This document shows positions 17,090 to 64,000 of a DNA stretch of 64,000 nucleotides, piece by piece. Both the position numbers and the translations under genes were made by a program. Positions within the stretch are counted from its first letter, which is position 1. Each line of letters begins with the position of its first letter. The notes under the pieces were generated by a model. The model was not told the origin of the DNA. It saw only the letters and a program-made list of their open reading frames with translations, and did no database searches. This DNA comes from Karstenula rhodostoma CBS 690.94 (Eukaryota > Ascomycota > Dothideomycetes > Pleosporales > Didymosphaeriaceae), in the NCBI GenBank assembly GCA_010093485.1, contig MU001495.1:2709765-2773764 (forward strand), given 5' to 3'.

Positions 17090-18958
17090 TCAATCTGCCT
17101 CGAGTTGGCGGGATTCTTTGGTGGCTTCCTCGTACTCAGTCTGAGCCGCGGTGTGTTCGACCGATGAGTTAATGAGGGTGGTGAGTTTCATGTCAAGGTT
17201 TGGTTTCGCCTTGTCCGAACGCTGTTGTGCTTCCGCTTTCATCTTTTCTCTGATCGGTTTATGAGTAGGTGGCAGCGATGTAGAGGAATCTCCATGAACA
17301 GCTGAATGACCTTGGGCTTGGATTAGGTCATGGCTAGTTTGGCCAAGTATAGTATGATTAGTACGGTTGCCACTCGTATCAACTTGGAGGGCTAATACCA
17401 GCTGCGTTGATGTAGCTTGTTTGGAAATTTTCGGAAACAGCCCATACGCCTTCCGTTCTTTCTTGGTAGCATGACGTGGGATCTTCCTCCAGATCTTCTC
17501 TAACTCCCTCACAAATGTATTTTTTACGGGTATGGTAGGTCTTGAGAATCCGAAAACATTTTTGTGGGCTGCGAGCATGAAGTAATATTTGGCCAGGGCA
17601 AAGATCTGCTGATCATCTCCTTCGGCGTAGAGGAAAGGATAAACGTAATCGATCATGGTGCTTGTTCTCCTGTCAAGTGGGACTTTCTTCGCCCTAACGG
17701 TGGTCCTAATGCGGATGGAGTGATCGGGACTAATAATCGGGTTCTCCATGCTGGCCTTCTCCAGATACACCCAGGCAAGCCCACCTTGCACTTTCAGCTC
17801 TGTACCATCTATGCACCTGCCAATGTACAACCTGATGGGTTCATCCCCATATCTTTCTACTTGATTTTCGAATGTAACATCTTTTAGGATGAGACAGTGA
17901 CGTACAGCGGGTAGCTTGTCGTTCAAGAAAGAAAGCGCTTCTGGTCCCACATGAGGTGAATCAGCAGCTTGATTAGCTACGTTCCTCTGCATCAGATCAC
18001 TTCTTAGCATTTTAGGGACACCGGGTGCCATGTGAACCGAAGTCAGCATAACATTGGGCGACTCTGGCTGTTTCAGAGGTAAAGACTGTTGGGCCTGAGC
18101 GGGACCTCTTTCTTGCGTTGAGCCTCGAGTACGAACAGGTAAGTGCGTCAGCTCAGAAGAGACTAGTTTTAAGGTCCCAAGGCCTAGAGCGTCATCAGGC
18201 TTCTTGTCCGTATCCCTTTTCTTCTTCTGTGCGAACGTCTCCAGATCTCGAAATGTTGTTGTTGTTTTTCTCGGTCTAAGCAACGCGCTTTTCAGATTGT
18301 CTACCCGAAAAGTGGCGAAATATTTCAATTCGTAATCCTTGGCTATGTTTTCGTATGCAGCCCATTGTAAACAATAATATTGGACAAGCGCAACAGTTTC
18401 CGGCCTTGGAGATCTTATTTTGGGCGCAGAGAGAAAGTATGGATCCCATCCAAAAGCTCCAAAGTCCCCATGGAAACTATTTGGAGGTCTCAATTGCCCA
18501 TTCTGGTCTATAAGCTCTCTTTGGGGCATGTTCCAGAGTGTACTTATGCCATTGTCATTAACCTGGATTGGCTGACGATAAGTTTCGGAACCGAGTTGAT
18601 TCTTCGTCTCAAGGTGCCCAAATGATAGAGCCACTCCTCTTGGTGAGCCCATGTACCTCACAAATGAGTAAGTAGTACGTGGTGGAAGTTTCTCTAAGAC
18701 ACCGAGTAGACCAAATTCTTTCAGTTGATGATAAATTCTTCTTAACTTCACTCTGCTTTGGGTTCGGACTTTGGCAGCGAGAGGGTTCCGAGGGTCATTG
18801 CTTCCCAACAACCGCGAACTGTGGTAACTGGTTAGACTGGCGAAAAGAAAACTCCTTCGCATCGCCGAAAGAAAGTACTCACCTATGCATAATCGATGGG
18901 ACAACAGTGCTGTATCTAACGTTTTGTAAAATCTCTCTCGAATTTGGTGCAAAAACAA
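17090..18958 (-). CDS. Hypothetical protein, 622 aa, unrecognised family
   Basis: One long open frame with protein-like composition; I do not recognise the family. The first 60 residues include SAMRRSFLFASLTSYHSSRLL, which could be a mitochondrial-type presequence if translation starts at the second methionine (about residue 33). Residues 60-220 look globular (LRRIYHQLKEFGLLGVL; FHGDFGAFGWDPYFL). Residues 235-330 are polar and disordered. Residues 350-500 look globular again (RLYIGRCIDGTELKVQGG; FALAKYYFMLAAHKNVFGF). The C-terminal 60 residues form charged helix, possibly coiled coil. A GTGAGT...CGCCAG pair near 18830-18880 might be an intron but is not needed for the frame. It is the last conventional gene before the promoter-like array. 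Confidence 0.6.
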   Translation of the reverse strand: MFLHQIRERFYKTLDTALLSHRLCIGEYFLSAMRRSFLFASLTSYHSSRLLGSNDPRNPLAAKVRTQSRVKLRRIYHQLKEFGLLGVLEKLPPRTTYSFVRYMGSPRGVALSFGHLETKNQLGSETYRQPIQVNDNGISTLWNMPQRELIDQNGQLRPPNSFHGDFGAFGWDPYFLSAPKIRSPRPETVALVQYYCLQWAAYENIAKDYELKYFATFRVDNLKSALLRPRKTTTTFRDLETFAQKKKRDTDKKPDDALGLGTLKLVSSELTHLPVRTRGSTQERGPAQAQQSLPLKQPESPNVMLTSVHMAPGVPKMLRSDLMQRNVANQAADSPHVGPEALSFLNDKLPAVRHCLILKDVTFENQVERYGDEPIRLYIGRCIDGTELKVQGGLAWVYLEKASMENPIISPDHSIRIRTTVRAKKVPLDRRTSTMIDYVYPFLYAEGDDQQIFALAKYYFMLAAHKNVFGFSRPTIPVKNTFVRELEKIWRKIPRHATKKERKAYGLFPKISKQATSTQLVLALQVDTSGNRTNHTILGQTSHDLIQAQGHSAVHGDSSTSLPPTHKPIREKMKAEAQQRSDKAKPNLDMKLTTLINSSVEHTAAQTEYEEATKESRQLEAD

Positions 18959-19704
18959 TAACTGGTATAGCCCGACGTCTATTTATACGACTCTTGTCGA
19001 TGGTGTGCTCGAGACAATGGAGCGTGACCGAGACTTAGCCTCGTGCTTCACCTCCACAAACACAACTATCGTCCACACGCCATCATTGAGATCTTCAATA
19101 TTCTTCTAAGAGCCTCCCACTTCGCTGTTAAATCTGGCCAGAAGTTGCTGTACCTTCCATAACCGTCAGACGAACCAAATGATAAGACTGACACAGCGCA
19201 ATCAACTAGTTTCAATAAACATATGGAGTCCATCCGAAAGTACAAACGTCACCGCCTGTGGACAAGATATCTCTTTTCACCGTCTACGCTTAACAACCCT
19301 CCGTTCAAAACTCATGGTAGTTTGCAATGGCGGAACCAGACGGGCTTCTAAATATGGACTCTGTCAGGCGGTAGGTAAGTAGGGGTCTGAGTGAGGACAC
19401 ATCAGACAACCACGTCGACAGACATGTGCTGTCCATCTTATTTGTAGACATGAAGCAATGATCATGCCTGCGGAACACCTAGCGCGTCCAATATTGACAC
19501 CGAATCTACAAAACCTCCCGTCAGGAGTTTGTTGCGCTTAGTAACCTGGGAGCCGGCTGCGTAGAGGAGCGGCGCGATGCTTGATTTTCGGGCGGTATGA
19601 AGAGAGCTCACTAAGAGACTCAGCTAAGCTGCAATGCTTCCAGAATTTTTGGGCAGGACTTGGCGCACATTCATTGACCACAAAAACATGTTGACACAAA
19701 CAGC
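18959..19704. other. Intergenic between orphan gene and repeat array
   Basis: No gene or RNA recognised. It includes the promoter side of the 622-aa gene. Faint similarity to the array blocks fades out here, so the array edge is not sharp. Confidence 0.5.
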
Positions 19705-19989
19705 AGTTTGGACAGACTAACTCCATATGAGATCTTTTGGTATGTTTTCAGAAGCGGAAGCCAATTAACAGCGCGTACAAATCAAAGACAAGAACGCAGA
19801 AGAGGAACATATTCGTGCGTTTCTTGTGTATGGCGCAGAGGACGAGGACGGGATCATCAGGCGGGAATATCATGGGCTCTATCAGTCTTAAAACGATGAG
19901 CGCTCTCGTCAATTCTCATCTCGAGCCTCCATCTTTGGACTACTACATGTTCACGTCCAGCCAGCTCATGGAGGCATTGCCTAATAGTT

Positions 19990-20098
19990 TCACCACAAGC
20001 AGCCGGTACATCAACACCATTTGTACACAGTTTTAGTGGTAAAACCAACAGTTGTGAAATTTCAAAGCTCAAAGAAGAACTACAGCGGTACGTATATG
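19990..20098 (-). promoter_or_regulatory. Array unit 15 (divergent)
   Basis: CATATACGTAC at about 20088-20098, ATTTCACAACTG, CCACTAAAACTG, and GTACCGGCTGCTTGTGG. The upstream element GTTGGTGATGATGATAAC is well kept. A still weaker copy of the downstream blocks is visible at 19705-19760. Confidence 0.5.
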
Positions 20099-20272
20099 TA
20101 TTCTGCTCGTGGTGTGGTTGGATGGATGTTATCATCATCACCAACATCAACAATTCAGGAGCACTCAATCTTTTAATACTACCACCGCCAGTCTAACTGG
20201 CCATGTTGTTGCCCAAGCTTCGATTTTGGACGACCACCACCCGTCCGTCCATCCATTCGCAGCTTTTGAAAG

Positions 20273-20389
20273 CCTTTTAGACAAAGCATGCCCTCATGGT
20301 CCGCTTTGGTGTCATCTTTGAGTGCAGAAGGCTCAAAGTACAAAGCGTAAAGAACGTAGTCTGAGCGGATCGGTGGCGGAATATATACG
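20273..20389 (-). promoter_or_regulatory. Array unit 14
   Basis: GTATATATT at about 20380-20389, a pyrimidine-rich stretch, GAGCCTTCTGCACTCAAAG and CATGCTTTGTCTAAAAGG. The upstream element GATGGTGGTAATGATGATTC is present. Confidence 0.65.
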
Positions 20390-20629
20390 TTCCCATGCCC
20401 GTCGTGTCAGTGTTGAGTGGAATCATCATTACCACCATCGACGTTTGAGAAAAACCCGAAGCCCGCTCACTAACCAGCATTGAATTGTTTCAATGTCAGG
20501 AGCGAGCGTCCTACTTTTCTCTCTAAACAACACCTTTAGATATTCCGCCAGCCCACACCTATGGTCAGTGTATTGTTGTTATAAGGCCAACCCATGCGAC
20601 CGCCCGCACATGAAACACTTGCGTTGCAA

Positions 20630-20770
20630 ATTTCAGACAACCACCCCGCCAGCTCGTACTTCAACATTGCGTTGGCGTTTAGTGGCCGAGACCTTGCAGT
20701 GAAGCTTACATATCTCCTCCCTTCTCAGCCGGCGTAGTTTCTACCTCCTTCACAGTCAATCAGTTTATAA
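20630..20770 (-). promoter_or_regulatory. Array unit 13 (divergent)
   Basis: TTATAAACTG at 20761-20770, GCTTCACTGCAAGG, CACTAAACGC, and GAGCTGGCGGGGTGGTTGTC followed by TGAAAT. The element GATGATGGTGGTAGTGATTA lies about 15-30 nt upstream of the box. Confidence 0.5.
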
Positions 20771-21067
20771 CGCCGTAATCACTACCACCATCATCAATGC
20801 GTACCATTAACAAAGAGGCTTCGCTAAATCCTTCCCATGCCCTGCTCAACCAAACTTCAGTCTGTCGCTCGTGCAGCAAAGGTGTTTTAGAGAAAGAGGG
20901 AAGAGGGAAGAGCGAACAATACATATAGAGATGTGTTCCACCGAGTTCCTTTACTGTGTTTTGCCGCTGCTTGCCCGAGCGCGTGAAGTATCAAATTTGG
21001 TAGAGATGTGTTACGGCCTTTTGATGAACGCCACCCGCGGTTCCGCTCATGGGCTGTACAGTTCCCG

Positions 21068-21179
21068 TCTTTGGACAACAGGCGGCACATTCGAACTTCA
21101 CTTTGGATTTTTTTAATAGCCCAAGCGAGGGTCGTGAAGTGTGCAGACTTCATCTCGATAATAGAGGCAGTATTTATGG
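21068..21179 (-). promoter_or_regulatory. Array unit 12
   Basis: CATAAATAC at about 21170-21179, CACACTTCACG 26 nt later, CTTGGGCTATTAAAAAAATC, then AATGTGCCGCCTGTTGTC and CAAAG. Confidence 0.65.
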
Positions 21180-21354
21180 ATACTGGGTGGTTATAACACG
21201 TTTACCATTAATAGTCGGAAAACTCGCAAATCCACTCACTAGCAACATCCAACTCTGTAAACTCTGTCGAACAATCCACCCTCTTCCATCTACTGCGCAT
21301 TGTTCGGATTTTTAGATAACCTACTAGCTACCCCATGTTCAGTCACGGTGCAAG

Positions 21355-21465
21355 CTTTTAGACGAACTCAATCACATGGTCTGGCATTAATCGGGCTTTC
21401 AGCAAGTCAGAAGCAAGAAGCTTGCAGTGTGGAACCCCTCCTCTTGGTCGGTGGTGTTGATACGT
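21355..21465 (-). promoter_or_regulatory. Array unit 11 (TATA degenerate)
   Basis: CCACACTGCAAG, GCTTCTGACTTGCTGAAAGC and CATGTGATTGAGTTCGTC plus TAAAAGC are recognisable. The TATA position reads ACGTATCAAC. Confidence 0.55.
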
Positions 21466-21635
21466 TTTTTAGGGTTTAGCGAAGAGAGTTGATGATTCAA
21501 ACCACCATCGCTGATAACTAAGAAATACCTAAGCCCACCTAGGTTGCTTTGTAATATACTCCGCCACTCCGCCTACACATGGGGCAGCTGGATTGGATAG
21601 CACACCAGTTCCCCCATCTTACAAAGGAGGTGCAC

Positions 21636-21749
21636 CTTCTAGACAAGCCCGATCCACGTGTTCTTCTAGTGTGTGTGTTTTGGTAAGGCAGAAGCCTGGA
21701 CATGTGAAGTGTGAACATCTCAGAGCGAAGACAGGGTCAGTATTTATAC
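21636..21749 (-). promoter_or_regulatory. Array unit 10
   Basis: TATAAATAC at 21740-21749, CACACTTCACA 26 nt later, GGCTTCTGCC, ACCAAAAC, GTGGATCGGGCTTGTC and TAGAAGG. An open frame (21619-21885) crosses this unit but is not shared by the others. Confidence 0.7.
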
Positions 21750-21903
21750 AATTTTCAGGGTTCAAAATAGAGGTGTGATAATAACGAGAAAGGGCTGAGA
21801 CGATCTCAGACATCGTACCATGCCTGCTCGTCCACATACTCCGTACATGCTGTGATTTTATAGACAGCCTCCTCGGTCGGCACATAAAACGAGCCGATCA
21901 CCA

Positions 21904-22020
21904 TTTTTAGACAAGATAGCTTCCATGTGGTGGATTTCTGTTGCTTTTAGCCAGGCAGAAGCCTTGGCGGATGTGTGAAGTGTAAATCATGTAGACTGAG
22001 AAAAAACGAGCTATTTACAC
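21904..22020 (-). promoter_or_regulatory. Array unit 9
   Basis: TGTAAATAG at 22011-22020, TACACTTCACA about 26 nt later, a perfect GGCTTCTGCCTGGCTAAAAG block and CTTGTCTAAAAA at 21904-21914. The upstream element GCGATGATAATCGGCAT is present. Confidence 0.7.
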
Positions 22021-22223
22021 CCTCTTATCTACATAGCGAGCGTGACTGTGATGCCGATTATCATCGCGATTGTCTTTCAGTCATAAATTCCCCCGGTCTT
22101 ACACGCTCATGGGTACAGCTCTTAGATCTTTCGAACAAATCTCCACCAGCGCCGGCATCAAGTTGTCATGGCGCAAATCTTGGACCGCCACCCACCCGCA
22201 CATAAGCGAATTCTCCCACAGGT

Positions 22224-22342
22224 TCTTAGACAAGTTTTGTCCAAATGACTCATCGTCATCAAAACTTTTAGTCGGACGAAAACCTAGATAGAAGCGTGAA
22301 ACGTGAAGATTTCCTCCCCCCCCCCATTTATAGTATTTACAC
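22224..22342 (-). promoter_or_regulatory. Array unit 8
   Basis: GTGTAAATAC at 22333-22342 (TATA variant), followed by a run of G residues, CTTCACGTTTCACG, CTAAAAG and TTGTCTAAGAA. The upstream element ATGATGATTATTATTATCAT is an inverted repeat at about 22367-22386. Confidence 0.6.
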
Positions 22343-22469
22343 ACTTTTCTGAGACTTAAAACGCGCTATGATAATAATAATCATCATATGACCGATAGTT
22401 AAGAAGGTGCTAGGATGACCCCAGACACCAACCCCGCCCGCTTTTCCCCATGTCGATAAGGCGCTGTGA

Positions 22470-22626
22470 TTTTTAGACAACGCGCCAGTCCACCTATAAA
22501 CATATCAAAGTAAAGCTTGTAGCCGAGCCCGCCCTACACGATTCATTGGTATTATTCTTTTGAGACTGACCGGAGAACCGATAGAAGTGTAAAGAGCTCC
22601 TCCCTCCCACCCAGCGTTATTTATAC
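22470..22626 (-). promoter_or_regulatory. Array unit 7
   Basis: TATAAATAA at 22617-22626, TACACTTC about 26 nt later, TCAAAAG in place of CTAAAAG, and a final TGTCTAAAAA block at 22470-22480. It is more divergent than its neighbours. The upstream element GCGATAGCGATGGCGATC lies at about 22665-22690. Confidence 0.6.
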
Positions 22627-22838
22627 ACCCCCACGTCCCATCCGCCGCGCGAGCATTATTGCGATAGTGATCGCCATCGCTATCGCCTTCCAGGTACACA
22701 GGTACATAGCTACAGCTCTCTCGCGCTTTCAAGCATGGCTCCTAGACCGTTTGAACACAGCGCGCACATGAATATTCCCGTTGGAGATTTTAGACAGACA
22801 AGCGACACCCGCTCGCACATGGCTGCGTCTGTAATTGA

Positions 22839-22952
22839 CTTTTACGACAACCCAGCTCCCATAGGTTGAATGAGCCATCCTTTTAGCAGCAGAAGAAACT
22901 AGAGCGTGAAGTGTGAAAACCCGGAGATTGGGGAAAGACGTGGTACTTATAC
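22839..22952 (-). promoter_or_regulatory. Array unit 6
   Basis: TATAAGTAC at 22943-22952, CACACTTCACG 27 nt later, TTCTTCTGCT, CTAAAAGG, GGGAGCTGGGTTGTCG. The gap between the last two blocks is 27 nt. A second TGTCTAAAA block follows near 22789. Confidence 0.7.
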
Positions 22953-23153
22953 ACCTCTACATCCGCTCCACGGCTGCCGTCGTGATGGTGGATGCTATCA
23001 CCATCGTTTATAAGCTACCGATGTAGTACCACATCTCGCCCGTTCATCTGGTACTCTCAGCTCTAAGAGGTTTGAATAGAGTCCGCCAAAGCGCACATGT
23101 AGCTTCTTGAACTGCTACACTGCACTCCACCCACATGCCAGTTCTGGGTAGGG

Positions 23154-23266
23154 TTTTAGACAAGAAAGCTCCCCATTAAACCTCGTTGTGGGAGCTTTTA
23201 TGAAGGCAGACGCCTCAGATGCGAAGTGTGAAGATCGAAGATGAAGAAAATCGGTAGTATATATAC
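23154..23266 (-). promoter_or_regulatory. Array unit 5
   Basis: TATATATAC at 23257-23266, CACACTT 26 nt later, GGCGTCTGCC, ATAAAAGC, and GGGGAGCTTTCTTGTC with the 30-nt gap. A (GGT)n tract lies just upstream at about 23300-23330. Confidence 0.75.
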
Positions 23267-23473
23267 GCTCCCGACTACAAACAGTCCTACAATGATAACC
23301 ACCACCACCACCACCACCACCACCACCATCACTGCCGCCAGCGAACGCGCCCGCCCACCCCATCCAGCTCGCGACCAACCACCCCGGCCGCCCATGATGA
23401 AGTAATGTATACGCTTTTGGACACCCGCCACCGCCAGCGCGCCCCGTCCACCCATTGCATGTCGGGGTTAGGG

Positions 23474-23584
23474 CTTTAGACAAGCCAGCTCCACATTCCA
23501 AACTGCCAATATAGCTTTTAGCCAGGCAGTTGCCTTGATGGAAGTGTGAGGAACGCATACCACGGAAGGAGGGAGTATCTATAC
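23474..23584 (-). promoter_or_regulatory. Array unit 4
   Basis: TATAGATAC at 23575-23584, CACACTT 26 nt later, GGCAACTGCC, CTAAAAGC and GTGGAGCTGGCTTGTC with the 30-nt gap. Confidence 0.75.
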
Positions 23585-23835
23585 ATCGCTGCGCCTGTGC
23601 GCCTCTTGTAAAAGAGGATGGCGAGGATGACATCCACCACCATGACCACCTCCACGCGCCCACCCCAGCGAGCTGTACTCAACCACCCCGCTCACCCACA
23701 CATTATTTCGCATACGTACTATTTGTGGACAACCAGGTCTTTCGTCGACGCGCGCACTCTGCCCATGGGACGGTGAATCTTGTATCTTGCAGTTCCAGCC
23801 CAGCCCGCTCCGTCCATGTGTTTTCAATAAGTGTC

Positions 23836-23940
23836 TTTCCGACACGCCAGCTCCACATGTCTGTCTGTTATACCGCTTCTTAGTAAGACCGAAGCCCTGT
23901 GAAGTGTAGAGACCGTAAACAGTAAAGAAGGCCGTAACAT
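23836..23940 (-). promoter_or_regulatory. Array unit 3 (TATA degenerate)
   Basis: CACTTCACAGGGCTTCGGTC and GTGGAGCTGGCGTGTC are present with the 30-nt gap. The TATA position reads GAGATGTTACGG, so the box has decayed. Confidence 0.6.
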
Positions 23941-24066
23941 CTCAAACAAGCCCCTCTCCACATAGGAGCTAAACAGAGCACTTGGTCAACGCAGATCCCC
24001 CGGTAGATGTGAATCATACACAATCCCGAGCCCGCCACGCCACCCATCAGACGTAACAGTCGTTGT

Positions 24067-24179
24067 TTTTAGACAAGCACCCTCCACATGACCGTGTAAA
24101 ATCGTTGCTTTTAGTACGACAGAAGCCATGTGAAGTGTGCAGACCATGAACAGACGAGAAGGCGGTATGGTATATATAC
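24067..24179 (-). promoter_or_regulatory. Array unit 2
   Basis: TATATATAC at 24170-24179, CACACTTCACA, GGCTTCTGTC, CTAAAAGC and GTGGAGGGTGCTTGTC all present, with the 30-nt gap between GGCTTCTGTC and GTGGAGG. An ATG lies directly before GGCTTCTG in this unit only. Confidence 0.75.
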
Positions 24180-24331
24180 GATTTCCGCAATCCAGCGAAG
24201 ACGGCTGATGTCGACCATCCCCATCATCTTCCAGTCCCCAACTCTCGCCAGCTCATGAAAGTTTTGCTCCTCGTGTTTTTGGACGAAAGTTCCACCAACG
24301 CAACGCAGACATATAGAAGTTGCTGCTGGCC

Positions 24332-24446
24332 TTTTAGACAAGCTACCTCCACATAATGTGTTCTTCCATAGACTTTTAGTATGGCAGAAGCCGCGATGAA
24401 AAGTGTGAAGAACAGAGAGTGAGGAGGAAGGAGCCGGTATTTATAC
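24332..24446 (-). promoter_or_regulatory. Array unit 1
   Basis: TATA box TATAAATAC at 24437-24446, CACACTT at 24401-24407, GGCTTCTGCC at 24383-24392, and the terminal TGTCTAAAA block at 24332-24342. The upstream GGTGGTGATGATTATCG element lies near 24475-24495. It is one of the most complete units and sits next to the 3' end of the squalene epoxidase gene. Confidence 0.75.
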
Positions 24447-24627
24447 ATCCCCGTACGCACCATGCACCAGAATAACGATAATCATCACCACCACCAGCCG
24501 ACAAAGCGCGTATGATGCATATGGTATTACAATTACTCTCTTTCTCTATGCTATACAGCCAGCCAACCGAGCCGCGCCGAATGCCCAAGCTCGTCCCAAA
24601 CGCCGAAAAAATGCACCTCCGGTTCCC

Positions 24628-26227
24628 CTACGGCCTCATCTCAGCAACGAGATACGGTCCAATGACCACACACGCCTTCCAGATGATCAGAATGCTCTCG
24701 ATCAGCAAAACGTAGGGTATCCGCCACACGGGCCCCGTGGCGGCCTTGCAGTAGATGGCGTAGAAAGCGACGGCGAAAAAGTGATAGACCAGCACCGCGG
24801 GCTTCCGTATCAGGCCCGATAGCAGCCCGCACGGCTCGCTAATGCACTTGCCGCCGCGCTGGAAATAGCGGAAACAGCCGTTCTGCAGGGCATGCAGCGC
24901 GGGCTCGTCGGCGGCGAAGAGCGAATACAAGGCCATGGCCAGGATGTTGATCACCGACGACGAGTCCTTGCGCGCCCAGTGGAACTGCCGTGCGGCCGCC
25001 AGCACCGCGGGGGTGTCCTCCAGGCTGGGGACCGCGGAGGGGGACAGCAGGCGCGAGAGGTGCAGCACGTCGTTGAAGGCGACCGTCATGCCTCCGCCGG
25101 TGAGCGGGTGGCGCATGTTCATGGCGTCGCCGAGGATGAGCATGCCGGGGGTACTCTGGGTTGCGGGCGGGAGGAAGGAATTGGGCATGGAGCGCAGCTT
25201 GCCGGTATCCAGGGCGCGGCGGAAGGACGGCTGCACCGAGGGCGGGAGGGCGGGGAGTGCGACGTTCAGCATGTGGTTCTTTATGCCGCCAGCTTGCACG
25301 CTCGCGGAGGGGCAGTTCTCCGGCACGTCGATGAGGATGCGGGTCTCGTGGGTGCCGATCTGGTAGATGAGGATGGGGGGCGCGTCGCTGAGGATGACGT
25401 GGCCGTGGTTGGGGCGCGGGAGGTCGGCGTCGATGAGCTCGAGGGCCCAGAACTTGGAGCGCACCTCGGGGGTGGTGGCGATGTAGCCCTTGCGGAACTT
25501 GCTGGCGTAGCCATCGGCGACGAGGGTGAGGGCGCCGAAGTAGTAGTCGGGCCGCCCCTGGGTCTGGGTCTCGACGCCCAGGATGCGGCCCGTGTACGAG
25601 TCCTTGACGACGTCGGTGACGGTGGTCTCGACGACGGTGACATTGGGGGCAGCGCGGGCGGCGTCGCGCAGCTTGGTGATGAAGCGGCCGTGGTGGAAGG
25701 CGCGGCCCTCGGGGCGGGCGGTCGAGTTGGGGACGAGGTCGGACGGGTAGGGGATGTGAACGGCTTCGCGGTGGAAGTCGACCTGGTAGCCGAGGCAGGG
25801 GATGGCGTCGATGGCGTCGAGGCAGTCTGGGCTATGGATCAGCATGTGCTTGTCATGGTATGATGTGGTGTTGTCGCGTACCTCGCAGCCCCAGCTCCTC
25901 CAGCGCCCGCACGCCGCCCGGCTGCAGCAGCTCGCCCACGATGCGGTCGGGCTCCTTGAGGCTCCGCTCCAGCAGAATCACGCTGCGGCCCTGGTTGCCA
26001 AACGCCACGGCCGCCGCGCAGCCCACCACGCCCGCGCCCACAATCACAATGTCGGCCTCGTGGTGCTCCCGCCGCCGCACCTCGCCCCGGTCGCGCGTCG
26101 CAACGCCCATGGCCCGCCCGCGCAGTGTCGTCGTCGTCGTCGTCGATGCTCTCCGCGCGCCTGTCGATGTGCCCGTCGCTGCCTCGGTCGTGGTCGCCGT
26201 CGTGGTCGTGGTCGTGGTCGTCGACAT
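24628..26227 (-). CDS. ERG1: Squalene epoxidase (squalene monooxygenase)
   Basis: Two exons (26227-25882, 25826-24628) encode 514 aa. The FAD enzyme converts squalene to 2,3-oxidosqualene in the endoplasmic reticulum, the first oxygenation step of ergosterol synthesis and the target of allylamine antifungals. Visible motifs: the FAD-binding GxGxxG at residues 64-69 (DIVIVGAGVVGCAAA), GELLQPGGVRALEELGL, DCLDAIDAIP (restored by splicing out a 55-nt GTACGC...CCCAG intron) and the second FAD motif GDAMNMRHPLTGGG (348-361). Two C-terminal hydrophobic segments (LVYHFFAVAFYAIYC; YVLLIESILIIWKACVVIG) anchor it to the membrane. The N-terminus is a threonine-rich low-complexity stretch encoded by an ACN repeat. 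Its 3' end abuts the promoter-like array, which is on the same strand. Confidence 0.95.
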
Positions 26228-34929: not shown

Positions 34930-36414
34930 CTAAGCACCAGTCTTACCCCCAGTCTTGGTGCCTTTGCCACCCTTGGTGCCTGTGCTACCCTCAGACCACA
35001 CCATCTTCTTTCCAGCCTTCTTCTTCTTGAGAGCCCTGAGGTACTCCTGGTAGCGGGCTTTGTTTGACACGCTGGGGCCACAGTCACCCTTCTTTGCCGG
35101 ACACTTGCCACCATTCTTCTTCTTCTCTGCGGGTGTGCATACCGGACACACACCCCCATTTGCCTTCTTCTCTGCCGCTGTGCATTTAGGGCACACACCA
35201 CCATTTGCCTTCTTTTCTCCTGGTGTGCATGTAGCCGCCTTGGCCGGGCACTTACCACCATTCTTCTTCTTCTCTGCCGCGGTACATGTAGACTTGGCTG
35301 GGCACTTGCCACCATTCTTCTTCTTCTCTGCTGCCGTGCACGTCGCCTTCACAGGGCACTTGCCCGCCTTCTTCATTGCAGCAGTGCACTTAGCAGTAGT
35401 CTTACACTTTCCGGCCTTCTTCATCGCAGCGGTGCACGTCTTAGTACCGGAGGTGGGCTTCTTTTTAGGCTTTTTGGCGGTCTTCTTGGTGGTCTTCTTG
35501 CGCCTGCCAGCAGTCGAGGGCCTCTTCCTGGATGTGCGAGAGCCTCGAGACCTGGCACGGGCCTCGAGAGGAGCAGCGGTGGCCACATCGACGGCATCAT
35601 CGATGTCGATATCAAGGCCGGAAGGCGACTGGTTTGCGAAGATTTCTTCGGCACGCTTGCTGGGGGCCCTGGGTTTGCAGTGGGCATAGCGAGCCCAGGG
35701 CAGTTTGCTCCAAGCTGGGTGGTTTCTCGGGAAGCCAGAAAGGGGAAACTGGGCACCGCCGTGGGGCTGTCCACCATCTGTATTATGTCAATATTTGGTC
35801 CATCACAAGGTGTGAAAAGGGGACTTACACATGGACTGGCTGAAATCAGGGTTGCGTTGGTATGGTTGCTCGAACGCTCCGCCCTTGCCATCTGAAACGA
35901 ATCTGTGCCAGCCTTGGACCTGTTCCCACGGAATCTTATCTATGGCGGCGAATTCCAGCTCATGGGGGAACGGACTGTACCCTTTCAGAGTGGCCTCAAC
36001 ATCGATGAGCCCTTCATCGGTCGCGATCCTGTAGATGTAGGCGTTTCCTCCATGGTGTTTGGTGACCCAGCCTTCGGCTACTGAGTACTTCCACGTGGTG
36101 GAAACGAACCCATCATTGTCCACACTAGCGCCATCTTTACCACCTAGGCAATGCCTATAGAGACTGAGATCTTCCAGGAGGCCGTTGTGGGTGCCCTTCG
36201 TCGTAAAGCCACGGGCGGCTTTGAGCGCACTTGGGGAACGACGATCCGCTCGCCAGACATATATGACATGTTGGTTCAGGTTGGCTCGCTCTTCAAAATG
36301 ATGCGAGGTGACGTTCCCGACATCTTCGAAGTCCCCTTCGAGGGGCGCGAGGGGCGCTGTGTTGCCAAAAGCAGCAAGGAATCCAAGAAATACGAAAGGT
36401 GCTTTCCACATCAT
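34930..36414 (-). CDS. Secreted ADP-ribosyltransferase toxin (heat-labile enterotoxin A type) with basic Cys/Lys repeat tail
   Basis: Two exons (36414-35829 and 35777-34930; 51-nt intron) encode 477 aa. Residues 1-19 are a signal peptide. The ADP-ribosyltransferase domain (about 45-180) shows the R-S-E order of the cholera/LT-A group: Arg55 in YVWRADRR, the STT strand at 105-107 (GFVSTTW) and the E-x-E pair Glu152/Glu154, followed by IPWEQVQGW. It would transfer ADP-ribose from NAD to a target protein. Residues 268-305 form a Lys/Arg tract like a histone H1 tail or nuclear signal. Residues 310-428 are about eight short repeats of the type CTAAEKKKNGGKCPAK. The tail is positively charged with regularly spaced cysteines. 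A TATA-like TTATAAAGG lies near 36621-36629. No break was found. The target and the role of the tail are unknown. Confidence 0.85.
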
Positions 36415-38191: not shown

Positions 38192-41100
38192 GATGAAGGA
38201 TGAAGGCAGCTACAGCTCGTGTGCGCTGTGAGTTGGGGTAAAGGGGACCACGGAAATGTTTGAGGATGTTGTCTTGATGGTAGAAGGAGGGTTCAGCAGT
38301 CAGAACGGGAACTGAAGCGATGTGGCCGCTTGTGCCGCCTGGCCCCCCGCTTTCCACGTGCTTGCAGCCCCCGCGCTATCCAGCCGTCCGCACAGCAGCT
38401 ACACGCTAGCCAGGCCATCGTCCAGGTAGCGTGAAACAACTTGCGCGAAACTCCCCAACGCCCAGGAGCATGTAGCTGCACGGCGCATTGCATATCCTCC
38501 GGAGGTTTATCTCTACGTTCTAGAGACGGAATAAACCCCTACAGGATATCGCTTTGTTCGCATCGGTCTTGCACGTGCTGAGCAGCGCTTCTAGTATCAA
38601 GGATATGGATTGATTTGTCCAGGGAGTATATTGGCTGTGACGAAGTTGAGTAATGAGATTATCTTCATTGAAAGTGAATTCTCTTGACCGTGATCTCAAG
38701 CTATGTCGAGAGTATGACAGAAAACGTGCTGACTGGAAAATCTTTCTGCAGAGAGGCAAGATTGGTCAAGCGTGTTTACCACAAGGCCAAATAATCAGCA
38801 GCTGATTAGAAAGTCTCCCACTGAGCAAATCACCAAATGCAAACCTCTTATTCCAACTTCTAATTAAACAACGAGATCAACACGGCTTATCAGTGTGTGC
38901 TTCCTGCGGACATAGATCCCTCTATGTCGGGTGAATAGCAGCAAAAAGCTGACTAGTTTCACTCCGGCGAAGGGACCGTTCATCGAGAACATTTTGCGAT
39001 TAATCATATCGACTTGGCCCACGCAGCCGCGTGGCGTTCGGATCACGTTCGACATACTCCTTTTGCGTTTACAGTACTTACTTACATCCGGCTGCAGAAA
39101 CACTAGCAATATTTTCCGCGTGTCGGACCGCCATTGCCCTTTCAGTATGCAGATGTGAAGTGTGTATATCCCGTGCCGAGGTTTACAAATCGGGCAGGTA
39201 CCAAGACCCAAGACCTGCATAGAAAAGATGTGTATTGAGCTTTTCCCAACCGACCGATTGGGGTCTGGATACTTTTTAGACACAATGTCGATTCATTACC
39301 CCTACTAGGTTGGACCATATGCGAATATCAATATCCACATTGCCCGCAAATACTTCTGAATTAATGGGTATACAGCTGGTAATCTACAGGAACACTCAAC
39401 ATTTCAATAGCTAAGCCATATCCATTAAATCTGGCTAACGGGTAACGATATCAGACGTGATTTTTAGATCATTTAATTCACCACGGCGAATTAGAACGCC
39501 AAATCCGTCAATAGCTAATGCCTACTACAAAGTATCTTGCGAAAATATTATAAGCGTTGAGCTATTGAAGGAGGTAAAACTACTAGACGAATACTTTTGA
39601 ATTTAATAGAGTGTAAGCAATAAAGGGTTTAACCACGAACTTATATGCAGAGGGTTAGTATAATTAAGGCTGAGGGCCTAAGGGGATATCTGGGCGTAAC
39701 CTGTTACACATATTGCACTACTCTTTAGCGCTTGATAAAGTACTTATAGCTACTTCTCGTTATTCTATGCATCTTTCTACTGTTATCAGACCCTCAAAAC
39801 CTCCCATTTTATTTGAAGATGGAGCCTTAGCTGCGCGACCGTCTGGACGGGGAAAGATTCGCGTTTTAAAACTTAAGGGGCTCCAAATTTACATTTCCGC
39901 GCCAGAACATAAGAAGAAGTCATTCTGGGAAGACGTCATTCTGGAGTCGAAGTAGACTGTAATGCCAGGGCTAGCTCATCACGCATAGAACCGAGAGAAA
40001 TAATATATCAGAGCGGAGGCATGACGTGGATTGATTGTGCAACTCTAGCAAATAGGAATTATTGTATAGATATGAATTTGAGTAACCTCGGGGATTGAAC
40101 TGTCGATCGCGGAACTTTGATGATCTGGGAGATAGAGGGGGCTCCAATTTTGCATTTGAACACTTGCTCTCTGGATATTCGGTACTCGGTGATGCTTATC
40201 TTACATCATTAAGCACATCATGTAGGTTTGATCAAATTAAGATTTGTTTTTGCTTCTTATGTACTATGATTATACGACAGACATAGCACACAATCCTGTG
40301 ATTCGTAGTACGTCGTATAGCGATCTGTAACCAATGTGGATATACTGTGTTTAAAGGAGATGTCGTAGTCTGGACCCCAAGTCTAGACACACTCCATTTG
40401 GAACGTATTCCAAGTCTATCGTGTTCAAGGTTAATCACTACGGCGCTGCATCGCTGCCCAAACTTCAACATCACGCCGCTCCTCCACAGAGCCGGCTCTC
40501 CAGATTACCCGGTCCAACAGGCTACGGCATTGTAGACGCATAACTGGGCAGATGCACCAAAACTGCACGGCATAACAATAAACTTCAGCATCACCCGATC
40601 ACAAGGGACAGAAATTGCTCTTCAGCCAAACATTCCGGCGCCAGGTGCCGAGGGCCGAGGCTAGTATAAGCCTCACCCAAGCGTGCTCACTAGCCACCTT
40701 GTGTAATTGTTGTCTTCGGGATACAGTCTCTTGTCGAAATCGGTTAATCCGAGCGAGCTCTCCAGCGTCCTGAGCCTAACCCAGGTGCGTTTCTATTATG
40801 TGCATTGTCGCGATGCGGTACCGAGGCTTTAACAGTCATGCGACTTGCCGCGGACGATAGCATCTAACGCTAATCGATTTGAGATTAGCTCCGAGTGCTG
40901 GACTCTACACCCTGCCATGAAGCAGGGGTATGTAGCGCGTTCGGAGTCCTGTCCTTTGAAAAGACCACAAAGAGGCAGGAAGAATCTCCAAAATGGTTCG
41001 TTGCCTCCTTGGTCTTCGAGAAAATGCAGTCAAGCCAGAACCATTTTTTGTTGCTCTGCCTAAATTTTGCACAGCCTGCGTGTAGCAGAGCTTATTCTGT

Positions 41101-59978: not shown

Positions 59979-62900
59979 TATATTAACTAGAATTTAATTA
60001 GAATTTCTTAGTAACTTTTACTATTAATAATTTTATTAGCTAGTATAAATAATAATATAATTATTATACTACTATTTAATATTCTATAATTAAATTAAAT
60101 ACTTTAGTATAAATAGAATAGTTAAATAAATAGAATTAGTATTACTTATAGATTAGTTTAAGTTAATTTATAAATTTAGACTAGTAAATAAATAAAAATT
60201 AAATTAGAATTAGAATTTTATATAAATATATCTAATTCTAATCTAATTCCTATTTAGATTTCTAATTATTTTTTTAAATAGGGATTAAATAAGGATTATA
60301 TAGACTCTAGATTAGAATAGAATTTTAAATAATAGAATTAGAATAGATTTTATTAAACTAAAATATATTATAAAATTATTATAGTTAATTATTATAACTA
60401 AATATATAATAGATTATATCTAATAGAATTTTTTAAACCTTAGTTTTTAGTTTAGTTATACTAAATATATAAGTTTAGGGTTTAAAATTTAATTTTAAAT
60501 TTTTATTAAATTTATAAATTTTTATTCTAGTACTTTTAGTTTTTTATATATCTTATTATTTATATTAAATTTAATTACTTTTATTTATTATAGAATAAGT
60601 AGATTTTATTTATACTAAAATTATAGAAATAATACCCTAAAAAGAATTTATATAAAAAAAATATATAAACTATAATAACTATAATATTTAAATATAGTAA
60701 AGAGAAAATTTCTCTCTAGAAAGTAATTAAATAATAACTTCTTAATAAAAACTTAATATATAAAAAAAAATATAATAATTAATACTTTTATTAAAGAACT
60801 ATACTTTACTATAAATAAATATACTTAATAAGTAATTTAACTATAAAATAATAAAGATTAGAGTAATAATTAAATAAATATCTAATTTAAATCTAAACTT
60901 TATATAGTTAAAGTTAAAAAAAATAATACTTAGTAATTTCTAAATAAAATTAAAATATTTATTAACTATTAAAATATATTACTACTAGAACTATTATAGT
61001 ATTAGATATAGTATAAAAAGAAAGAAATATAAAAGAATAAAATTAAATTATTTTAATAAAAGTCTATTATATAAAGTTTTTTTTATCTCTTTTATAATAA
61101 ATTATTAGAATAAGTATTATTTAGTTTTTTTATTTCTTCTAAACTTCCTTTTTATAATAGTCTATTAGGCCTACTATTTCTTTAATTTTATATTACTAAC
61201 TAATTTTTATACTATATTTTTCTTTTTTTTTTTAAGGCTTAGCTCCTAAGCCTCTTAACTACTATATTACTTTAACTAATTTTTAACTCTATATATTTTA
61301 TTTTATTTTAATTTATTTATTTATTCTCTTTTAATTATTTACTATTTTTTTTAAAAGTCTTATCTAGTCTTTTATTTATTTATTTAGTATTTTAATATTT
61401 ACTAGCCCTTTTAGTAGATTATAATTATATTTAATAATCTATTACTCCTTTATTCTTTAAAATAAAATAACTAAAGTTATTTACTAGTATTTTATATATT
61501 AGATAGTAATAATATAGAAATTTCTAGTTTATAAATAGTTTTTATATTTTTTATTAAACTCTATTAAAAGGTCTATACTTAATTTTAGAGTATATAATTT
61601 TTTTTTTTTTTTTTTTTTTTAACTTAGTTTTAACTTCTTATTAATATTTTTTAATTTTCTAGCTTTTCTACTCTAATTCTTTTTTAGTTCTTTTCTATTA
61701 AATTTTTTTTTTAAATCTTTTTTATTTACTTCTTTATTTTTTATTTTTTTTTAATATTTTTTTATTAACTTCTTTTTTTTCTCTTTACTATAGCTATTAT
61801 TAATTATATTACTAGTAAAACTACTATTAGTACTACTAGAAATAATAATAAAAAGTCTAGTAGTAAAAATAGTAATAATCTATTATATTATAGTTTTAAT
61901 AGTAACTTAAAAACTAATTTTTATATCTACTTTTTTAAATCTATTAAAAAGTATATTATTAAATAGTATAAATTATTTTAACTATTTTTTATTTTTATTT
62001 TTTTTATTTACTTTTATTTAGTTTAGATAAAAGTTTATTAGAAGATAAACTATAATTTTTTTTATAATTTTATCTAATTTATTTATTAGTTTAATTTATA
62101 AGGTATTACTTTTAGTTCTATTCTTTATACTATAAATATTAATAAAAATAATAGATTTATAAATCTTACTATTTAGAATTTTAATATTAGTAATACTAAA
62201 GTAGAAACTATTATTAAGTTTTTTAATTTAAGTATTAAGAATATTCTTTTTAAATATAATTACTATAATATTAATATTAATATAAGTATATAATATACTA
62301 TTAATATTATTTACTTTTCTTTTTTTTTTTTAATTAACTATTATTATATTTACTACTAGAACTATTTAGATAGAGTTAAATTTTATTTTAGAGATAAGTA
62401 TAGTATTTTTTATATTAAAAATAAAATATTAAACTAAAATATCTATAATAAATATTAAATAAATAGTAATTATACCTTTTATTTTTTTTATTATAAATTT
62501 TAGTTTTAATTCTATATTACCTCTACTTTATTAACTTCTTTCTAGAAAAACTAGCTAATTTTAACTCTAGTTCTTTAGTTATTAATATTCTTTCTACTAG
62601 AATAATATATACTTAGGCTTTATTTATATAAGTTTCTAAGGTAATTTCTACTCTAAATACCCCTAAATATATTTAATTATAAAATATATACTATATATTC
62701 TATAAAATATAGTATATATATAAAATAATAATATTTAATATTTTATTAACTAATATCTAGTATTCTATTAACTAATACTAATTATTTTATTAACTAATAC
62801 TAATTATTTTACTAATTAATTAATACTAATTATTCTAAATATATTAGATTATAGAATATATATTATATATTCTATAAAAAGTAGTATATATATAAAATAG

Positions 62901-64000
62901 TAATATCTAATATTCTATTAACTAATATCTAGTATTTTATTAACTAATACTAATTATTCTATTTATTAACTAATACTAATTATTCTATTAACTAATACCT
63001 AATATTTTATTAACTAATAATTAATATTTTATTAACTAATATTTAATATTTTATTAACTAATACTAATTATTCTATTAACTAATATTTAATATTTTATTA
63101 ACTAATACTTAATATTTTATTAACTAATATTTAATATCCTATTAACTAATATTTAATATTCTATTAACTAATACTAATTATTCTATTAATTAATATCTAA
63201 TATTCTATTAAATAATATTTATTATTCTATTAACTAATACTTAATATTTTATTAACTAATACTTAATATTCTATTTACTAATATTTAATATTTTATTAAC
63301 TAATACTTAATATTCTATTAACTAATATTAATTATCCTATTAACTAATATTTAATATTTTATTAACTAATATTAATTATCCTATTAACTAATATTTAATA
63401 TCCTATTAACTAATACTAATTATTCTATTAATTAATACCTAGTATCTAGAAACTATAATAGGAGTAGTTATAAAAGTTTAACTTTTCTATAGCCCCCTTT
63501 AGTATAATCCTTTATATATATTTAAACTTTTCTATTAACCCCTATTATAAAGTATATTCTTTTATATATTAATATTACTAAAATTTTTCTTTTTAATAAT
63601 ATAATATACTAGTTATAGACCTCTTATTAAGTTATATTTTATTAAATTACTATTTAATAGTTTCTCTAGTAATAATTTTTTAGGAGGTAGTTTATTTATT
63701 ATATAGGTAATATATATATTTTTAATTATAATAAAACTTTTAAATACCTTTTTATTATATTTTATAACTATATTTATTTAGAAGCTAAACTATATTATAG
63801 TTATATCTCTTTTAATAGATATATTTAAGATAGTATTCTAAGTATATTAGATTATAGAATATATATTATATATTCTATAAAAAATAGTATATATATAAAA
63901 TAGTAATATCTAATATTTTATTAATTAATATCTAGTATCCTATTAACTAATACTAATTATTCTATCTATTAACTAATACTAATTATCCTATTAACTAATA
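59979..64000. repeat. A+T-rich RIP isochore (runs off the window)
   Basis: From about 59980 to the end the sequence is almost only A and T, with scattered C and G limited to contexts such as CT, CC, AG and GG. I found essentially no CpA, TpG or CpG, whereas TpA is everywhere. That is the end state of repeat-induced point mutation acting on formerly repetitive, transposon-derived DNA. No open frame or transposon domain survives. Homopolymer runs occur, such as 22-24 T residues at about 61597-61620. Confidence 0.9.
62745..63437. repeat. Degenerate tandem repeat of TATTAACTAATA-type units inside the isochore
   Basis: A unit of roughly 22 bases built from ATTCTATTAACTAATACTAAT (with TTTAATATTTTATTAACTAA variants) recurs about 30 times and resumes at 63910-64000. 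Flanking it, a related ~100-bp segment containing ATTAGATTATAGAATATATA occurs at 62834-62940 and again at 63833-63940, with a more distant copy at about 62672-62760. So the tandem block is part of a larger repeat of about 1 kb. Confidence 0.8.

Follow-up and report, generated by a model that had tools for sequence, protein, structure and literature searches.

Array A, a run of tandem units on the minus strand of a 64,000-nucleotide stretch of the Karstenula rhodostoma CBS 690.94 genome (contig MU001495.1; the whole stretch is called the window below), belongs to a family spread through the genome, and each of its units is probably a small, separately promoted non-coding RNA gene of the RNA polymerase II (Pol II) type, which carries a stem-loop followed by spaced boxes. 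Dozens of such tandem arrays of probably non-coding small RNA genes appear to be present in this genome. An earlier sequence-only reading of the window had described about 15 equally oriented minus-strand units with a fixed order of blocks, approximately 310 bp apart, and had taken them for tandem promoters of non-coding RNAs. We found 14–16 units between 19.7 and 24.5 kb, in which the named blocks repeat in one order; with 16 units assumed, the spacing is 310 bp on average and ranges from 233 to 426 bp. The observation is real, and both the order and the coordinates given for it were right. The stem-loop, an upstream element, a fixed distance from CTAAAA to ATG, and the recurrence of the architecture beyond array A were absent from that description.

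Within the window the units are confined to array A, which decays most at its far end (lowest coordinates). The sequence ATGTGGAGCTGGCTTGTCTAAAA, searched with up to 6 mismatches, gave 7 matches in the 64 kb, all of them inside array A and on the minus strand, and the pattern CTAAAA-N18..20-ATG occurs 14 times on the minus strand of array A and 0 times in the rest of the window on both strands. A profile of aligned units was one of the checks that the sequence-only reading had pointed to, together with a genome search. We built it from the sequences of 14 array A units, which it recovers by construction (E ≤ 1.7e-9), and it also finds a partial unit at 19707–19764 (E 0.0044) and one unit at another locus in the genome, L007 (E 9e-5). 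Outside array A, an isolated perfect CACACTTCACA stands on the minus strand at 39164, after GGGATATA and with GTCTAAAAAG about 115 nt upstream; the pair of box and ATG is absent there.

The genome search covered one assembly of 44.3 Mb in 29 contigs, and the architecture recurs at 18 loci besides array A. These 19 loci, on 12 contigs, were read with 1–14 scored units per locus, which gave 97 units in all; matches in AT-rich DNA were excluded from the loci read, and so were two matches on contig 25. The 97 units were chosen by a score for the TATA box, the start block and the box at loose spacings (22–46 nt from TATA to start block), and because of this scoring these three parts are not independent evidence. 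The stem, the upstream element, the CT-rich stretch, the spacing to ATG and the strand bias are independent of the choice of units. Four more arrays, L050–L053, were read afterwards and were chosen by the box-spacing pattern. Over the 19 loci the units follow the same order: a GATGAT/ATCATC element, the TATA box GTATATAAAC, the start block TTCACACTTC about 35 nt on, the stem-loop, GACTAAAA and the boxes.

The exact pattern of start block and box has 7 matches in the genome and 1 when reversed. Three of the 7 lie in array A and others mark arrays elsewhere, on contigs 1, 5 and 10; at the seventh, L008, no array was seen by eye. When the TATA box was included in the pattern there were 39 matches and 3 reversed ones, and inspection by eye placed 13 of the 39 in AT-rich DNA, as apparent chance matches. 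For a three-box pattern the numbers were 208 and, reversed, 10; its places among the matches listed are mostly AT-rich DNA, and the count was not used. The strand bias is strong: over 53 kb of arrays (18 loci) CTAAAA occurs 147 times on the array strand and 4 times on the opposite one, compared with 5 and 12 on the two strands of the 53-kb window control, and in L050–L053 the numbers are 60 and 3.

Units of one array are tandem relatives. In array A, neighbours score 30, distant units 22 and shuffled sequences 16 (non-overlapping windows), and neighbours were more similar than distant units in all four arrays compared; therefore, the arrays grew by tandem duplication. In two close pairs of units the blocks are retained, and the DNA between them has largely drifted. 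The same neighbour similarity would be expected of functionless, decaying repeats of satellite or transposon origin, a reading to which we give very little credence. It does not account for the exact spacing and the pairing that survive in diverged units, and in base composition and dinucleotide indices array A (GC 0.48, TpA/ApT 0.85) is close to gene regions and differs from the AT-rich block at 60–64 kb (0.13 and 1.37). Array A, the only array indexed in this way, is neither AT-rich nor TpA-rich, and a transposon repeat mutated by repeat-induced point mutation (RIP) was rejected. The selection on the blocks that the earlier reading had deduced is backed by the strand bias, by the maintained pairing and by the fixed spacing, the last two of which are described below.

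The region before the start block resembles a promoter. In the 97 units, chosen partly on a distance of 22–46 nt between TATA box and start block, the median of that distance is 35 nt (5–95% range 31–44), and the consensus strings are GTATAtAaACc, TtCACACTTCt and gACTAAAA. The stretch from −20 to +20 around the start block is CT-rich, and CTAAAA peaks at +20 to +40 and ATG at +40 to +60 from the start. The upstream element peaks 60–120 nt before the start, with GATGAT/ATCATC-type words at −120 to −60 in 36 of the 97 units, compared with 5, 7, 4 and 8 units for the stretches −220 to −160, −160 to −100, 0 to 60 and 100 to 160; the words found at 160 to 220 (19 units) presumably belong to the next units. 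At the place of this upstream, GGTGGTGATGAT-like element U05 has an (ACC)n microsatellite (23298–23332), which suggests that the element may expand. The whole arrangement matches fungal Pol II core promoters. It seems, then, that the earlier proposal of promoters is partly supported by the TATA-to-start distance, the CT-rich stretch, the upstream element and the stem-loop, all of which fit it as predicted elements. We infer Pol II from this arrangement. A TATA box about 35 nt before the start, an upstream element and short units would also suit genes of RNA polymerase III (Pol III) with upstream TATA promoters, as in U6, a reading that we find very doubtful. TTTT is the usual Pol III terminator; of the 97 units, 39 have it in their first 150 nt, the count on which a Pol III type 3 gene was rejected, and 27 have it within 80 nt; a T run stands at any one position up to +240 in at most 10.

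A short stem precedes the first box. Stems that end no more than 2 nt from the first CTAAAA have a mean score of 3.93 in the 97 units and 2.17 in shuffled sequences (z 8.5), strong stems are found in 44% and 12%, respectively, and at eight shifted positions in the same units there was no excess. In further arrays the first-box stem gave z 2.9 (n=10). The arms vary among units (AGGC/GCCT, TTTCTC/GAGAAA, TGCCC/GGGCA, TCGAC/GTCGA, CCTCC/GGAGG, TCTTCCAC/GTGGGAGA). Since the arms change and the pairing is maintained, the pairing should take place in RNA, extruded DNA being the less likely place, and the varying stems thus point to an RNA rather than a DNA reading. Crediting G-U pairs also does better than crediting A-C pairs, by about 2.2 standard deviations, which favours the array strand as the RNA.

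The distance between CTAAAA and the following ATG is nearly constant. Measured between the C of CTAAAA and the A of ATG, it is 24, 25 and 26 nt in 27, 53 and 8 boxes, together 88 of 110, and without any filter on units 116 of 151 boxes at the 19 loci have a distance of 24–26 nt. In L050–L053 we set 24 of the 60 boxes aside before counting, because these loci had been chosen by the spacing pattern, and among the 36 boxes outside that pattern the spacing is kept in 23, with 1.4 expected. The pattern GWCTAAAA-N18..20-ATGKG has 155 matches in the genome and 9 when reversed, compared with 6 matches (reversed control likewise 6) when the spacing is enlarged by 8, to N26..28. Among the matches listed (100 of 155), 82 fall into 22 same-strand clusters of at least two, and neighbouring pairs within 6 kb are same-strand in 60 cases and opposite in 0. 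The spacer itself is free: 108 spacers of 18–20 nt were collected, all of them distinct, with near-uniform columns except for the first two and the last positions. Spacer similarity is 0.51 for neighbouring units and 0.49 between arrays (52 of 97 units parsed), and that of the stretch after ATG is 0.69–0.71 within arrays and 0.57 between them. The constant distance lies across the free sequence, since the stretch after ATG varies in length. The block GTGGAGCTGGCTTGTC-TAAAA of the sequence-only reading is present, and in most units it is only the first of one to three cassettes of this kind.

The boxes may form longer chains. In L050–L053 chains reach 5 boxes, 34–74 nt apart (chained at gaps of up to 75 nt). 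L018 (C2:2.558 Mb) and L052 (C11:0.577 Mb) contain cassette chains, mostly with a 45–48 nt period and with few or no recognisable TATA boxes; boxes may multiply in this form. Near L020, at C3:230833-231074, overlapping matches imply six CTAAAA boxes with a 46–48 nt period, similar stretches and different spacers.

As the boxes alone cannot tell RNA from DNA, the main rival is a reading at the DNA level, in which GWCTAAAA-N18..20-ATGKG would be a two-part binding site for a chromosomal protein, the arrays its platforms, and transcription incidental or absent. Two-part DNA sites, such as recombination signals or −35/−10 promoters, typically show fixed length with free sequence. This is what we see here, and the strict spacing (155 against 6) and the single orientation of neighbouring pairs agree with it as well. 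The DNA reading leaves unexplained, however, the stem-loops whose arms change with the pairing maintained, and also the TATA-to-start spacing, the CT-rich stretch and the weak wobble bias. We consider it unlikely, though still to be reckoned with.

The ATG invites a coding explanation, in which translated mini open reading frames (ORFs), or the remnants of a tandem protein-coding family, would run from ATG to the TAA inside CTAAAA. By eye, several units of array A have the ATG in frame with the TAA (MWSWLV-stop and similar). Nevertheless, at the 72 of 111 later boxes that have an upstream ATG the three frames occur 30, 22 and 20 times and are thus not conserved, C or T directly precedes ATG in 68% and A occupies position −3 in only 24% (63 boxes), and the five ORFs tested, of 14 listed for array A, have no Pfam domain. 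The coding reading was dropped on the unconserved frames and the lack of domains in the ORFs tested, and we find it hardly credible. Rfam 15 gave 0 matches in the window and 0 in 15 other loci, and 0 at E ≤ 1 in array A. The sequence-only reading had allowed that the units might be copies of a known satellite or of one protein-coding gene family, and neither finds support in Rfam, the reading frames or Pfam. Tandem Repeats Finder detected no long-period array at 19.7–24.5 kb and reported only the ACC run mentioned above. A general comparison, with Rfam as its only test, did not reveal the full set of defining parts of Helitron ends (a stem and then CTRR), box C/D and H/ACA small nucleolar RNAs or spliced-leader RNA, nor those of long terminal repeats or recombination signals.

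Several observations weigh against separately promoted RNA genes. The wobble test is weak (38 against 24 units), and a stricter count gives GT 5 and AC 4. RNAalifold found no consensus pair in the alignment of array A, perhaps because the stems differ between units; the position-anchored stem test replaced alignment folding after this result. When 16 array A units were folded separately, the common shape was only the small stem. Later boxes have no flush stem (z 0.0–1.1, 67 boxes), and a window test on 111 of them gave a faint stem excess at most (mean Z +0.13 to −0.33). A clear TATA box is missing from three of the 16 array A units, the expected one being degenerate at ~23945, ~20752 and ~19800, and the pair of box and ATG is absent from four. 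In L050–L053 only 10 of 60 boxes, with none from L052, have a TATA box 43–85 nt before them, and a start-block match accompanies 1 of these 10, so some arrays may have weaker promoters or longer chains. Finally, all results come from a single genome.

With these points considered, small Pol II-type RNA genes are still the probable explanation, and they might work as follows. The promoter would consist of the GATGAT/ATCATC upstream element, the TATA box and the CT-rich stretch, and the RNA would start at TTCACACTTC. Its 5′ part would be a short stem-loop flush against GACUAAAA, followed by one to several cassettes in which CUAAAA and AUG[U/G]G stand around 18–20 nt of free sequence. A spacer fixed in length and free in sequence suggests a factor which touches both boxes and bridges the stretch between them; most likely, an RNA-binding factor would read the stem-loop and the two-part boxes, and its grip on the 18–20 nt would set the spacing. 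These nucleotides may be held unread by the factor, or they may pair with something. The units would multiply in tandem just downstream of same-strand protein genes and then diverge except at their elements. If transcribed, they would make up a large class of RNA genes missed by standard annotation, as there is little homology between copies, no conserved ORF and no Rfam model. A constraint on 18–20 nt by length only would imply that some molecule gauges how far apart two boxes lie. The family also suggests how tandem genes may persist where repeats mutate heavily, with the boxes kept and the rest diverging.

Piwi-domain matches in the genome make an RNA-guided reading possible: there are 8 of them at seven places (contigs 1, 10, 11 and 20), one with two internal stops, and several genes are Argonaute-like. 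In its full form, which we think quite unlikely, this reading takes the units for guide-RNA arrays: hundreds of unique 18–20 nt spacers between CUAAAA and AUGKG, with serial promoters and a stem-loop leader, would be cut into guides for an effector, perhaps an Argonaute, with targets outside the nuclear genome (viruses, mobile elements or other RNAs). Fixed-length, unrelated spacers between conserved blocks are a trait of guide arrays that the present arrays share. Four of the 108 spacers, searched through the genome with up to 2 mismatches, matched themselves and 1, 1, 0 and 1 two-mismatch sites; about 0.5 chance matches per spacer are expected by our own estimate, and no excess of targets, hence no support for pairing, was found for these four. 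All 108 spacers, compared with 178 kb of collected DNA, shared no more 12-mers with it than shuffled sequences did.

Several known systems resemble the small RNA genes proposed here. Tandem arrays of small nuclear RNA (snRNA), 5S and spliced-leader genes consist of short RNA genes with upstream promoters, their copies nearly identical; for snRNA and 5S, Rfam has models. The tandem arrangement and the upstream promoters are shared with our units, whose copies are, in contrast, diverged and have no Rfam match. In arrays of clustered regularly interspaced short palindromic repeats (CRISPR), conserved blocks alternate with unique spacers of near-constant length behind a leader. The same alternation is reported for the tandem interspaced guide RNA (TIGR) arrays of TIGR-Tas (PMC12045711). 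Unlike in CRISPR and TIGR arrays, the blocks here vary in length and are degenerate, with about 70% similarity within an array, there are several promoters per array, the genome is eukaryotic, and no target was found for four spacers. NORAD is one long RNA, unlike our arrays, where each unit has a promoter-like block. Long non-coding RNAs of the NORAD type (on which see PMC7617650) share with these arrays diverged repeats in which short motifs for protein binding and a small stem are retained. Type I PIWI-interacting RNA (piRNA) mini-genes of C. elegans (PMC6436959, PMC4015492 and PMC6317315) are likewise many clustered small Pol II units with their own upstream motif and unrelated transcripts, and there the motif leads to a single RNA of ~28 nt. 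Unlike these, the present units combine a TATA promoter with a stem-loop and with chained, spaced boxes, and they stand in tandem arrays of one orientation. Candidate structured RNAs of fungi have been collected as fifteen motifs (PMC5640933), and the section headings of that source point neither to tandem arrays nor to the present architecture. No account of such arrays was met in the open-licence literature searched for this architecture, which, with this genome the only fungal one searched, is weak evidence that it is new relative to these sources.

The arrays tend to follow protein genes of the same orientation. In 15 of the 16 arrays whose upstream flank was read, the preceding open frame lies on the array strand; the count leaves out L020, L026, L030, L034, L036, L038 and L042, and for 4 of the 15 the same-strand call depends on a frame that Pfam does not match. 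The preceding frames encode squalene epoxidase (array A, whose first TATA box lies 183 bp past the stop codon), a MatE protein (array B), 1760 amino acids (array C), a sugar transporter (array D), an NIF phosphatase (L027), a fungal transcription factor (L032), an RSN1 channel (L037), Hsp70 (L039), a thiolase (L041), a peptidase M14 (L050), a kinase (L051) and a carnitine acyltransferase (L052), and those of L018, L023 and L053 have no domain. At L032 more than 1 kb separates the end of the transcription-factor gene from the first box, with an unnamed frame of the opposite strand in between. In the sixteenth array, L021 (flank L045), the closest frame to be recognised is ubiquitin-like and has the opposite orientation. 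The recognised flanking genes are metabolic and cellular, and no search aimed at an effector gene was made. On the other side of array A, a minus-strand open frame of 630 amino acids without a Pfam domain (17090–18982) follows directly on the same strand.

Table 1. Array A, its 16 candidate units and the gene before it (positions in the window; coordinates of TATA-like boxes mark their starts).
Feature	Positions	Strand	TATA-like box	Start block	Stem-loop	Boxes (CTAAAA/ATG)	Remarks
Array A	19700..24490	-					whole feature, 16 candidate tandem units; mean spacing ~310 bp
U01	24250..24447	-	TATAAATAC 24445	CACACTTTTCA 24407	GGC-TTCT-GCC 24392-24383	24379/24354; 24337/24312; CCAAAA 24282/24256	
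U02	24040..24180	-	TATATATAC 24178	CACACTTCACA 24139	ATGGC-TTCT-GTCGT	24114/24089; 24072/24047	
U03	23835..23947	-	degenerate	TACACTTCACA 23908	GGC-TTCG-GTC	degenerate	box-ATG pair not found
U04	23390..23585	-	TATAGATAC 23583		AGGC-AACT-GCCT	23521/23496; 23479/23455; 23420/23395	
U05	23150..23267	-	TATATATAC 23265	CACACTTCGCA 23230	GAGGC-GTCT-GCCTT	23201 (ATAAAAG); 23159	
U06	22765..22953	-	TATAAGTAC 22951	CACACTTCACG 22915		22886/22862; 22793/22769	
U07	22445..22627	-	TATAAATAA 22625	TACACTTC		22476/22451	
U08	22216..22343	-	TGTAAATAC 22341	CACGTTTCAC		22271	box-ATG pair not found
U09	21880..22021	-	TGTAAATAG 22019	TACACTTCACA 21984	AGGC-TTCT-GCCT	21950/21926; 21910/21885	
U10	21636..21750	-	TATAAATAC 21748	CACACTTCACA 21713	AGGC-TTCT-GCCT	21683	box-ATG pair not found
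U11	21285..21464	-	TATCAACAC 21462			21402/21377; 21361/21336; 21315/21289	
U12	21045..21180	-	CATAAATAC 21178	CACACTTCACG 21143		21074/21050	
U13	20605..20754	-	unclear			20636/20611	degenerate
U14	20200..20389	-	TATATATTC 20387			20280/20256; 20229/20204	
U15	20005..20102	-	TACATATAC 20100		TGGT-TTT-ACCA	20036/20011	
U16	19700..19802	-				19751/19726	degenerate most of all units; partial profile match 19707-19764
Squalene epoxidase gene, 3′ part (Pfam SE)	24628..25977	-					co-oriented, directly before array A; context, outside the array

Elsewhere in the window, 45- and 54-bp tandem repeats (35108–35364) lie inside a minus-strand open frame at 34930–35787 that has no Pfam domain. The genome contains 6 cytosine methylase matches, and its genes lie in split open frames; together with squalene epoxidase, the fungal transcription-factor domain and the AT-rich block, these traits would suit a filamentous ascomycete. 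The AT-rich block at 60000–64000 (GC 0.12–0.13, TpA/ApT 1.37, CpA+TpG index 0.00) looks like heavily RIP-mutated DNA, and within it we found a 22-bp tandem array of ~32 copies at 62729–63437.

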